Of a DNA stretch of 64,000 bases, positions 12,881 to 64,000 are shown one piece after another. Source of the stretch: Halolamina sediminis. Lineage in GTDB: Archaea > Halobacteriota > Halobacteria > Halobacteriales > Haloferacaceae. The stretch is from contig NZ_CVUA01000001.1 in NCBI RefSeq assembly GCF_001282785.1, forward strand, positions 2,542,001-2,606,000, read 5' to 3'. The number at the start of each line of letters is the position of its first letter. The stretch's first letter is position 1. Below the pieces are notes generated by a model, which was not told where the DNA came from, made no database searches, and saw only the letters and a list, made by a program, of their open reading frames with translations. The translations under genes were made by a program, and so were the position numbers.

Positions 12881-13081
12881 CTACTCACCTGCTTGCGCGT
12901 CGATATACTTCTCGATGATCTCACTGGATACGTCGCCCACACTTGAGACGAAGTACGAGCGCGTCCACAGTGACGGCAGGCCGAGGTCGAACTCGTCACG
13001 GAGGTGGCGAGAGGAGTAGCCCTTGACTTGTTGGCTTATCTTGTTCGGGGCGAGCGCTGGGTAATACTGGAGCGCGATCCC
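12881..13081 (-). pseudogene. tnpA: TnpA (Y1 transposase) C-terminal fragment
   Basis: About 65 residues ending just before tnpB: KISQQVKGYSSRHLRDEFDL, LPSLWTRSYFVSSVGD and VSSEIIEKYIDAQAGE. This is the C-terminal part of the IS200/IS605 TnpA single-strand transposase, including the helix with the tyrosine of KYIDAQ that is the expected nucleophile. The N-terminal HUH metal site is missing and the left end of the element is not recognisable, so it cannot transpose by itself. The upstream limit is approximate. Confidence 0.8.
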
Positions 13082-13195
13082 TACGCTGTCGACGAAAAGT
13101 GGTCGGGACTACCCGACATTGAGTGGGTGAGAGTTGACCAACTCAAACATTGTACCTCGATAAAGGCTCAACCAGCTACAGATTCACTGAACCGT

Positions 13196-59557: not shown

Positions 59558-59995
59558 ATTTCTGGTTTTAGCTTCCGTCGACGCGAGGTTCACGGAGCCG
59601 ACAGCAACAGCATCCCGACGCTAGACCACTTGTGACCGCCGTGCGGCGGGCATGAAGCCCGGCGCAGCACGGAATCCCCACCCCTCCCCCCGCGAGCGTC
59701 GACGAGAATCTTCGATTCTCGGCTGCCAACCAGAACGCGAAGCGTTCTGGTGACGCCGACCGCTGGCGCTCGCGAGGCGTCCACCGCCACCGCACCGCGG
59801 TCGCTGTCGGCGCGAAGCGCGAGGGATGACCGACTGAGCGAAGCGAAGGAGGGAGTCGGTTGGGGAGGTCTGTGGGCTGTGCGGGGCGGTGCGGTCACAA
59901 GTGGTCAAGCATCGAGACGCTGTCGCTGTTCGCGGCCTCGAAGGACGAAAACACGCAAAAAGCTATCCAAACCCCACCAAACCCGAAACCGAAAA
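59558..59995. repeat. Non-coding block bounded by ~45-bp imperfect inverted repeats
   Basis: A 438-base spacer without a gene I can support. GACCACTTGTGACCGC at 59624-59639 is repeated in inverse as GCGGTCACAAGTGGTC at 59891-59906 (16 bp perfect). The flanks outside also pair with about one mismatch in four: AGCGTCGGGATGCTGTTGCT against AGCATCGAGACGCTGTCGCT. Inside are short hairpins (GAATCTTCGATTC and CAGAACGCGAAGCGTTCTG). It may be a MITE-like insertion or a recombination product. Confidence 0.6.
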
Positions 59996-62019: not shown

Positions 62020-63840
62020 ATGAGCGGCAAGAAACGGTTCACCCCCGAAGAGTTGGCCCGCCTCCCCGAGTTCCACCACCCCCGCGTGGGGCCGGACGGC
62101 GAACGCATCGCGTTCTACTACGACGGTAGCGGCCGCAACGAACTGTACGTGCAGGAAGTCGAGCGCGGCGAGCGCCGGCAGATCAGCGACGGGGAGGTCC
62201 CCCGCGCCGCGCGCTGGCCGATCGCGTGGGGTGCCGACGGCGAACGGGTGTTCTTCCACCTCGACGACGACGGCGACGAACAGAACGACATCTGGGCGAT
62301 CGACCTCGACGGCGACGCCGAGCCGGTGATCGAGACACCCGGACAGGCGTCGCTGCAGGACGTGGCCGACGACGGCCGGCTGCTCTACGCCAGCGACGAG
62401 GGCGAGCAGATGAACCTCTACCTGTTCGACCCCGCGGCCGGCGAGTCCGAGCAGCTGACCGAGAACGACGAGCCGGTCCGGGGCGGGAGCTTCGCGCCCG
62501 CCGACGACCGGATCGCCTACATGACCAACGAGACGGAGGCGATGGAGAACCGCGACGCGTACGTGATGGATCTGGAGCGCCGCGAGTCGCGCCGGCTCGA
62601 CATCGGCGAGACGGGCTCCCAGACCGCCGCGGTCGACTGGCACCCCGACGGCGAGCGCCTGCTCGTCCGCGACGACACGGAGGACTTCACCAACGCCGGC
62701 GTGTACGATCTGGGGAGTGACGAGGTGCGGTGGCTCAGCGCCGGCGACGCCGAGGAGTCGCCGGAGGCGTTCGGGCCCGACGGCGACCGGGCGTACGCCC
62801 TGCGCAGCGAGAACGCCGGCCGGGCACCGATCGTCTACGACCTCGACGGCGGCGAGTCCGAGCCGCTCGACCTCGCCGAGGGTGTCGCCTCGCTGGCCGG
62901 CGGCGAGCACTTCCTCACCGACGGCCGGCCCGTGTTCACCCAGACGACGCCCGACACGCGCTCGTCGCTGCTGGCGTACGACGACGGCGCGACCGAGACG
63001 CTGATCGAGCCCGACTACGGCGACATCGACCCCGACGCGTTCGTCGACGCCGAGTACGTCACCTACGAGTCCGCGGACGGGCTGGAGATCGGCGCGCTGC
63101 TGTACGACGCGCGGGACCGGCCTGACGGCGAGGAGAGTGAGGAAACCCCCGGCGTCGTGAAGGTTCACGGCGGCCCGCACGGCCAGTCGATGCAGTCGTT
63201 CGACCTCTACGCCCAGTTCCTCGTGAGCGAGGGGTACTCGGTGCTGCTGCCGAACTACCGCGGCTCGGTCGGCCGCGGGCGGGAGTTCCAGCAGGCGATC
63301 CTCGGCGACTGGGGCGGCAGCGAGCAGGAGGATATCGCCGCCGGCGGCCGGTGGCTGGGCGACCGCGAGTTCGTCGACGAGGACCGGCTCGCGGTGTTCG
63401 GCGGCTCCTATGGCGGCTACTCGGCGTACTGCCAGCTCACGATGCACCCCGAGATCTGGACGACCGGGGTGGCATGGATCGGCATCACCGACCTCGAACT
63501 ACTGTACGAGGAGTCGATGCCCCACTTCAAGGCGACGCTGGAACAGCAGCTCGGCGACCCCGAAGAGAACGAGGCGCTCTGGCGGGAGCGCTCGCCGATC
63601 ACCCACGTCGGCGACATGGAGGCGCCGGTGTTCGTCGTCCACGGCGTCAACGACCCGCGCTGCCCGATCTCGCAGGCGCGGGTGTTCCGCGACGCGCTAC
63701 AGGAGCGCGGCTGGGAGATGGGGCCGGACGGCGACTTCGAGTACGAGGAGCTCGAGGAGGAGGGCCACGGGAGCTCCGACGCCGAGCAGAAAGTGCGGGC
63801 GTTCGGGCTGATCGGGGAGTACCTCGAGCGGCGGCTCTAA
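62020..63840 (+). CDS. S9-family prolyl oligopeptidase-like peptidase
   Basis: A 606-residue peptidase. N-terminal beta-propeller (WD40/TolB-like; DIWAIDLDGDAEPVIETPGQ) of about 350 residues followed by an alpha/beta hydrolase with the nucleophile in FGGSYGGYSAYCQL (about Ser464), the Asp in VVHGVNDPRCPIS and the His in EEEGHGSSDAEQKV. Typical of acylaminoacyl-peptidase or prolyl oligopeptidase of family S9. No signal peptide, so probably cytoplasmic peptide turnover. The 72-nt tandem structured repeats start 1 bp after its stop. Confidence 0.93.
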   Translation: MSGKKRFTPEELARLPEFHHPRVGPDGERIAFYYDGSGRNELYVQEVERGERRQISDGEVPRAARWPIAWGADGERVFFHLDDDGDEQNDIWAIDLDGDAEPVIETPGQASLQDVADDGRLLYASDEGEQMNLYLFDPAAGESEQLTENDEPVRGGSFAPADDRIAYMTNETEAMENRDAYVMDLERRESRRLDIGETGSQTAAVDWHPDGERLLVRDDTEDFTNAGVYDLGSDEVRWLSAGDAEESPEAFGPDGDRAYALRSENAGRAPIVYDLDGGESEPLDLAEGVASLAGGEHFLTDGRPVFTQTTPDTRSSLLAYDDGATETLIEPDYGDIDPDAFVDAEYVTYESADGLEIGALLYDARDRPDGEESEETPGVVKVHGGPHGQSMQSFDLYAQFLVSEGYSVLLPNYRGSVGRGREFQQAILGDWGGSEQEDIAAGGRWLGDREFVDEDRLAVFGGSYGGYSAYCQLTMHPEIWTTGVAWIGITDLELLYEESMPHFKATLEQQLGDPEENEALWRERSPITHVGDMEAPVFVVHGVNDPRCPISQARVFRDALQERGWEMGPDGDFEYEELEEEGHGSSDAEQKVRAFGLIGEYLERRL

Positions 63841-63841
63841 C

Positions 63842-64000
63842 CGATCACGGCGAGCAACCTGGCGGAACCTCTGTGTTCCGCCCACGGAGCCGATGCCGTG
63901 ATCGTGTTGTAGCCAGTCACGGCGCGTGACCGCTCGCCGGCTCCGTCCGGCGAGCACGGAACTCGATGCCGTGACTGTGTGTAACCAGCCACGGCGCGTG
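63842..64000 (+). repeat. Tandem 72-nt structured repeats (possible ncRNA array), continues past edge
   Basis: Three units begin at 63842, 63914 and 63986: exact 72-base period; the third is cut by the window edge. Unit 1 outer stem CGATCACGGC / GCCGTGATCG (63842-63851, 63895-63904); unit 2 CAGTCACGGC / GCCGTGACTG (63914-63923, 63968-63977): changes at two stem positions are compensated. Inner hairpin: unit 1 GGCGGAA / TTCCGCC (63861-63867, 63876-63882), unit 2 CTCGCCGG / CCGGCGAG (63933-63940, 63947-63954), at the same place with different sequence. The hairpin loop (CTCTGTG; CTCCGT) can pair with the following CACGGA word. This pattern speaks for RNA (or DNA) structure kept by selection. 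Identity unknown. Confidence 0.75.

Follow-up and report, generated by a model that had tools for sequence, protein, structure and literature searches.

Several short repeats are tied to stop codons or gene ends. Integron attC sites are imperfect palindromes that directly follow a stop codon in a fixed orientation and carry the boxes RYYYAAC and GTTRRRY, and the MIRU of mycobacteria are dispersed, tandem intergenic minisatellites associated with stop codons, which occur in operons at stop/start overlaps. The REPs measure 20-40 bp and bear a tag, GTAG or CGTC (PMC3733652), and about 11% of those of Escherichia coli are found within 15 nt of a stop codon (PMC12306157). In this bacterium, REPs located less than 16 nt from the stop codon were reported to lower translation and to stall ribosomes (Liang et al. 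2015, as cited in PMC12306157). In the haloarchaeon Haloquadratum walsbyi, the SMRs are mobile repeats 80-110 bp long that have inverted termini, cause no target duplication and are moved by an unknown mobiliser; they are commonly >95% identical within a type, and those of type A (about 110 bp) insert into IS605-type/PATE palindromes (PMC3119063). In Haloferax volcanii, hairpins were located just upstream of 503 transcript ends, one that was tested terminated, and the median 3' UTR measures 97 nt (PMC7237163). Here, we describe repeats of Halolamina that share traits with each of these systems, starting from an array behind a peptidase gene of Halolamina sediminis. The window is a stretch of 64,000 nucleotides, positions 2542001-2606000 of the contig (genome G000).

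Results

An array of four units follows the S9 peptidase gene

A sequence-only reading of the window had pointed to three units spaced 72 nt apart right after an S9 peptidase gene, and the sequence indeed places their starts at 63841, 63913 and 63985. The stem pairs quoted as evidence of pairing, CGATCACGGC/GCCGTGATCG, CAGTCACGGC/GCCGTGACTG, GGCGGAA/TTCCGCC and CTCGCCGG/CCGGCGAG, are present as written. Extension to the right revealed the rest of unit 3 and a fourth unit past position 64000: the array consists of four and ends just beyond the window. The features are as follows, in window positions unless the contig is named, P1 to P3 being the helices described below.

62020-63840, + strand: gene of an S9 family peptidase (606 aa), whose TAA stop (63838-63840) adjoins the array
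63841-63906, + strand: unit 1, stop-codon-anchored structured repeat (covariance model R1, 78.3 bits, E 1.2e-15)
63842-63851, + strand: unit 1, P1 5' strand (partner strand 63895-63904)
63854-63858, + strand: unit 1, P2 5' strand GCAAC (consensus GYGAC), facing 63886-63890 (covariation at 15-49 and 18-46)
63861-63868, + strand: unit 1, P3 5' strand (partner strand 63875-63882)
63869-63874, + strand: unit 1, conserved apical loop (consensus CYCCGT, from alignments A1/A4 and column frequencies)
63875-63882, + strand: unit 1, P3 3' strand (partner strand 63861-63868)
63886-63890, + strand: unit 1, P2 3' strand GGAGC (consensus GGARC), facing 63854-63858
63895-63904, + strand: unit 1, P1 3' strand (partner strand 63842-63851)
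63913-63979, + strand: unit 2 (model R1, 87.5 bits, E 6.2e-18), with P1 63914-63923/63968-63977, P2 63926-63930/63958-63962, P3 63933-63940/63947-63954 and loop 63941-63946
63985-64000, + strand: first 16 nt of unit 3, which continues to contig position 2606051
contig 2606057-2606123, + strand: unit 4, the last of the array; a convergent gene has its stop 17 nt further on

Taken singly, units 1 to 4 fold more stably than their dinucleotide shuffles (z of -5.1, -5.7, -3.1 and -4.2). The S9 gene has orthologs in Halolamina that are 87-92% identical, and its end carries units in H. sediminis, Halolamina rubra and genome G195, with a downstream neighbor that differs among the three, so that the units go with the S9 gene. 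The same gene end is free of units in G178, G196 and Halolamina pelagica, and in the latter two the S9 stop codon directly adjoins the stop of a convergent gene.

The units form a family confined to Halolamina

A covariance model built from 38 units (R1) retrieved 69 units in 34 clusters from this genome, a number far above chance, where a plain nucleotide search had given 27 matches. All seven Halolamina genomes harbor the family, with 19-103 units each (73 in G197), so that the many homologous arrays expected of a genuine element do exist. Roughly every second cluster consists of one unit only. The units are 64-67 nt long, typically ~66 nt, and the period of 72 nt is a local property of the S9 array, as other arrays have periods of 70-73 nt.

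A search of haloarchaeal genomes had been suggested; homologs were found throughout Halolamina, and elsewhere only four weak single matches were obtained. Two of them, marginal, came from a search of 195 genomes of the order with strict filters, and two from a family-level sample of 40 genomes, including 37 from other genera, to which a better model and looser filters were applied. Because both searches came back nearly empty outside Halolamina, we consider the family as essentially genus-specific. Seventeen loci gave no Rfam match at gathering score, in line with the sequence-only reading, which had assigned the array to no known RNA class, and permissive thresholds yielded chance-level matches only. 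The literature searched on Halolamina repeats contained nothing relevant. The units make up a real family, previously unclassified within Rfam and the literature searched, with a putative function and with kinship to REP-like/3'-UTR elements.

Covariation supports a fold of three stacked helices

The proposal of a structured element with compensatory changes was borne out by covariation across units. In an unsupervised analysis of 251 unique units (Neff about 97 at 80% identity), the eight highest corrected mutual information values among 2080 column pairs were those of the P3 pairs 21-28/35-42; the outer P1 pairs ranked next and, together with the P2 pairs 15-49 and 18-46, fell within the top 18. 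P2 (GYGAC/GGARC) had escaped the sequence-only reading and was found by covariation. It comprises pair 15-49 (CG 122, UG 57, UA 45, CA 10), pair 18-46 (CG 181, GC 20) and G14-C50, with G16 A17 facing G47 A48; these GA/GA positions plausibly form tandem G.A pairs, which would be non-Watson-Crick.

Applied to 110 diverse units, the three-helix model left 88.1% of the cells paired and showed two-sided changes in 19 of its 21 pairs; none of 500 shuffles reached its covariation score and none its paired fraction, and the paired share dropped to 28-50% when the model was slid along the alignment. P2 alone exhibited 30 double-change cells versus 12.4 in shuffled alignments (0/500 reached this number), and its paired cells and covariation score exceeded those of all shuffles. 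These results support a unit predicted to stack three helices, P1 of 10 bp, P2 of about 5 positions and P3 of 8 bp, with the conserved CYCCGU loop on top.

The sequence-only reading had also proposed a pseudoknot between the hairpin loop and CACGGAG downstream of it. The complementarity is present, over 7 positions in unit 1 and partially in unit 2, but the pairing gains no support from covariation: for loop positions 29-34 with 44-49, 209 of 500 shuffles reached the observed score in the 110 diverse units, and across the 251 units the paired fraction equaled the expectation for independent columns. We reject the pseudoknot because covariation is absent and because its 3' segment is the P2 strand, which does covary; with no linker on either side, it would in addition be incompatible with a full 8-bp P3 in the same unit. 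A kink-turn, which needs a three-nucleotide bulge next to tandem G.A pairs, does not fit either, since the covarying Watson-Crick pairs 15-49 and 18-46 flank GA/GA on both sides and no bulge adjoins it. Archaeal H/ACA or C/D guides and SECIS elements were also discarded, given that ACA and C/D boxes are absent and that the stop codon varies.

Two structural variants were seen. One unit (L220:2523-2566, at a site orthologous to L146) has no P3 and keeps P1 and P2. At six loci (L128, L085, L224, L234, L237 and L262), P1 takes in bases of a TGA stop codon (TGAGCCACGGC...GCCGTGGCTC).

Units are anchored in sense orientation to stop codons

Placement was examined with our own codon-usage gene caller in four genomes, where 85 of 121 clusters (~70%) start between -4 and +3 nt from a same-strand stop codon: 76 begin 0-3 nt past the stop codon, for which a random intergenic position and orientation would give 0.42%, and in nine others unit and stop codon overlap by 1-4 nt. 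The gap between stop codon and unit is 0 nt in 55 cases, 1 nt in 21, 2 nt in 16 and 3 nt in 2, and TAA, TAG and TGA all occur as anchoring stops. Since some clusters have a well-placed stop triplet without a called gene, we also counted triplets regardless of gene calls and found one ending at most 3 nt from the unit in 119 of 148 clusters.

The host genes, ~1% of all genes, are housekeeping genes, including those of lipoyl synthase, ATP synthase, pyrophosphatase, SOD, the proteasome, aconitase and MCM. The MCM helicase gene ahead of one array (L152:389-3034) holds an intein (Intein_splicing domain). Same-strand downstream genes are mostly at least 60 nt away, so the units sit between transcription units. 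The downstream gene lies on the same strand in 72 of the 121 clusters and on the opposite strand in 49; this is no excess at convergent pairs, and a role as convergent-gene insulator was rejected. Runs of four T follow 28% of the arrays versus 15% of other gene ends. Readthrough of the stop codon, or any coding use of the units, is contradicted by the gaps to the stop, by the unit lengths of 64-67 nt and the periods of 70-73 nt, which keep no frame, and by the stop triplets that the spacers carry.

A minority of ~9 of the 121 clusters adjoin a divergent promoter instead of a stop codon: they touch its upstream edge, at 40-46 nt from the start codon of the divergent gene. Such arrays precede a DRG-like GTPase gene (L136, L210 and L268) and a RIO1 kinase gene (L123, L231 and L252, with a hairpin chain in between at L123), and are also seen at L242 and L265; these sites recur in other species.

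Given their sense anchoring to many unrelated 3' ends, the units behave as 3'-UTR elements or as stop-codon-targeted repeats. The sequence-only reading had instead envisaged a free-standing tandem small RNA, a ribozyme or a ligand-binding element, which does not agree with units that follow, in sense, a large number of unrelated housekeeping genes. The compact conserved fold, the conserved unpaired core and the tandem occurrence would suit a stand-alone tandem sRNA, a self-cleaving ribozyme or a ligand-binding element; yet the frequent single copies, together with the lack of a pseudoknot and of an Rfam class, make us regard this possibility as very improbable.

Recurrence at gene ends and growth of the arrays

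For 24 of 33 loci of this genome, one or more of three other species also carry an array at the equivalent gene end, a count that includes one match via a paralogous M28 peptidase. At the shared loci, coding sequences are mostly 81-95% identical, and first units are 67% identical versus 59% for random units. Identity between units is 72% within an array and 62% between arrays. The spacers contain a stop-like triplet in 57% of the cases, compared to 21% after shuffling, and are similar to the sequence on the 5' side of the array in which they lie (2.75 of 6 positions versus 1.94; p < 1/5000 by permutation). Hence, an array lengthens by tandem duplication of a unit together with its stop-proximal flank.

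Such features are also those of a selfish REP-like or small mobile repeat, a palindromic DNA that would prefer the stop-codon position, expand in tandem and have no role for the cell, its pairing being kept since mobility needs a folded single strand. The units are dispersed, palindromic, extragenic, tandem and genus-restricted, the same site can be filled or empty between species, the stop-like triplets of the spacers and their likeness to the flank suggest that the repeat takes the stop region along or copies it, and H. walsbyi offers a precedent with its mobile repeats of 80-110 bp with inverted termini (PMC3119063). Against such a selfish origin without use, species have gene ends in common far more often than independent insertion predicts, and the covarying internal helix with its plausible non-Watson-Crick core exceeds what a simple palindrome needs. 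Furthermore, no dedicated transposase was found: the Y1/IS200-type transposase domain (PF01797) is absent from G195 and from G197 (79% complete) and broken in G000, and the flanking genes surveyed contain no transposases. An IS200/IS605 element as mobiliser was rejected, since its presence does not correlate with units and G197 has its 73 units without TnpA. A palindromic repeat of the same genome that bears a CGTC tag is, in contrast, not anchored to stop codons. On balance, a purely selfish repeat is a possibility that we hold to be nearly as likely as a 3'-UTR element, and the two do not conflict, since the first may describe the origin and the second the use.

Other repeats and mobile traces in the genome

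The CGTC-type repeat is dispersed and palindromic, consists of hairpin chains with alternating GACG(T) and TGCCA linkers and resembles CGTC-tagged REP dimers. Dimers of this kind with CCA-like tails have been surveyed, and the survey lists bacterial phyla only (PMC3733652). We observed the repeat at L123:2870-3030 (contig 170569-170729), L150:3146-3266, L129:3280-3400 and L127:3014-3045 and, by pattern match, within the window at 59745-59755; some units contain a copy of it within the P3 loop or P1. Right before the CGTC-type hairpin pair of the window, a longer repeat (about 59625-59760) ends with CCCCACCCCTCCCCC(C)GCG, and similar ones were seen in L318, L334, L336 and L339; our guess is that it may belong to IS1341/TnpB-type elements, as their right end or guide RNA. 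An IS200-type transposase fragment (12893-13084) lies in a region of the window (about 10-25 kb) for which few genes are predicted from codon usage and which is possibly a mobile island.

RNA or DNA as the level of action

At paired columns, the sense strand shows 257 G.U versus 159 A.C overall, and 70 versus 31 in P2. A strand-neutral count of G.U to A.C gives 44:23 in P3 and 119:93 in P1, and the down-weighting of related units brings the comparison to 20.5 versus 16.1 effective. Because the G.U excess nearly vanishes after down-weighting and is slight in P1, palindromy at the DNA level is compatible with these counts. The units might accordingly serve as BIME-like chromosomal sites between transcription units, recognized by gyrase or a nucleoid protein or extruded as cruciforms; the perfect inverted repeats between transcription units, the units that adjoin promoters instead of stop codons and the weak asymmetry in P1 would fit. 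We nevertheless judge such a DNA-level site improbable, considering the strict anchoring of the 5' end and the sense orientation with respect to stop codons, the lack of excess at convergent gene pairs (72 same-strand, 49 opposite) and the internal covariation of P2. The sense orientation, the stop anchoring, the internal helix and the G.U excess of the sense strand favor RNA, and we consider a function as RNA likely.

Discussion

The units of Halolamina have a fold supported by covariation, are anchored to stop codons in one orientation, recur at orthologous gene ends, multiply locally in tandem and are confined to one genus. The best explanation, to which we give close to an even chance, is that they constitute a putative Halolamina-specific family of structured, hypervariable 3'-UTR RNA elements that act on mRNA ends or on translation termination. 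Our current working hypothesis is that transcripts would run from the gene into the units, which would form the beginning of the 3' UTR, in keeping with the 97-nt median 3' UTR and the hairpins ahead of transcript ends in H. volcanii (PMC7237163), and that P1 would have to be opened by any ribosome that terminates at the stop codon. Once the ribosome has gone, the compact hairpins would refold and mark the end of the mRNA, where they would most likely slow 3'-to-5' decay and/or help to define the transcript end, while a protein perhaps reads the conserved P2/loop core. P3 and the outer part of P1 would be free to vary as long as they pair, hence a hypervariable sequence at a fixed place.

An origin as a mobile repeat, followed by retention for a 3'-UTR role, is compatible with this proposal, and the restriction to one genus would be expected of a recent repeat no less than of a functional element. 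Some observations count against a 3'-UTR role: the promoter-edge clusters (~9/121) are left unaccounted for, the S9 gene end lacks a unit in H. pelagica and G178, which means that sites are gained or lost, and only ~1% of genes carry a unit. A bolder version of the 3'-UTR reading, which we find unlikely, would be a putative class of archaeal 3'-UTR RNAs that sense or control the end of translation: the terminating ribosome would open the base helix at the stop and let it refold upon release, a protein or the ribosome itself would read the P2/loop core, and the fate of the mRNA would thereby be tied to termination.

Few prokaryotic repeats are known to lie at one fixed distance and in one orientation from stop codons, and even fewer occupy the same sites in different species while their sequence changes within the limits set by pairing. 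Should the family have a function, it would be a lineage-specific 3'-UTR module retrofitting many housekeeping mRNAs at once, and would provide a natural mutational series for the effects that structures at stop codons have on archaeal termination, mRNA decay and transcript ends. Should it be selfish, the targeting of stop codons without an obvious transposase would pose a puzzle of mobilisation like that of the haloarchaeal SMRs.

Compared with the MIRU, which also favor stop codons, the Halolamina units are located between transcription units and possess a covarying fold. They differ as well from attC sites: RYYYAAC/GTTRRRY boxes are not apparent by eye in alignments A1/A4, there are no cassette arrays and the hosts are fixed housekeeping genes. 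With the SMR/PATE of H. walsbyi, they have in common to be short haloarchaeal repeat elements, whereas in contrast to SMR-A they measure 66 nt, occur in tandem behind housekeeping stops and are only about 60-70% alike. The terminator-proximal hairpins of H. volcanii (PMC7237163) are likewise hairpins of a haloarchaeon, lying near transcript ends, but they are not described as a repeated conserved family and are not anchored to stop codons. The resemblance extends to the REP/BIME of enterobacteria, dispersed extragenic palindromes in many copies, of which REPs are found in the 3' regions of mRNAs. The Halolamina unit is distinguished from a REP by its 66 nt, its three helices and the lack of a GTAG/CGTC tag in the consensus, and from the REPs of E. 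coli by the fact that most clusters stand within 3 nt of a stop codon in one fixed orientation. The stop-proximal REPs of E. coli are the nearest experimental precedent for the mechanism proposed here.
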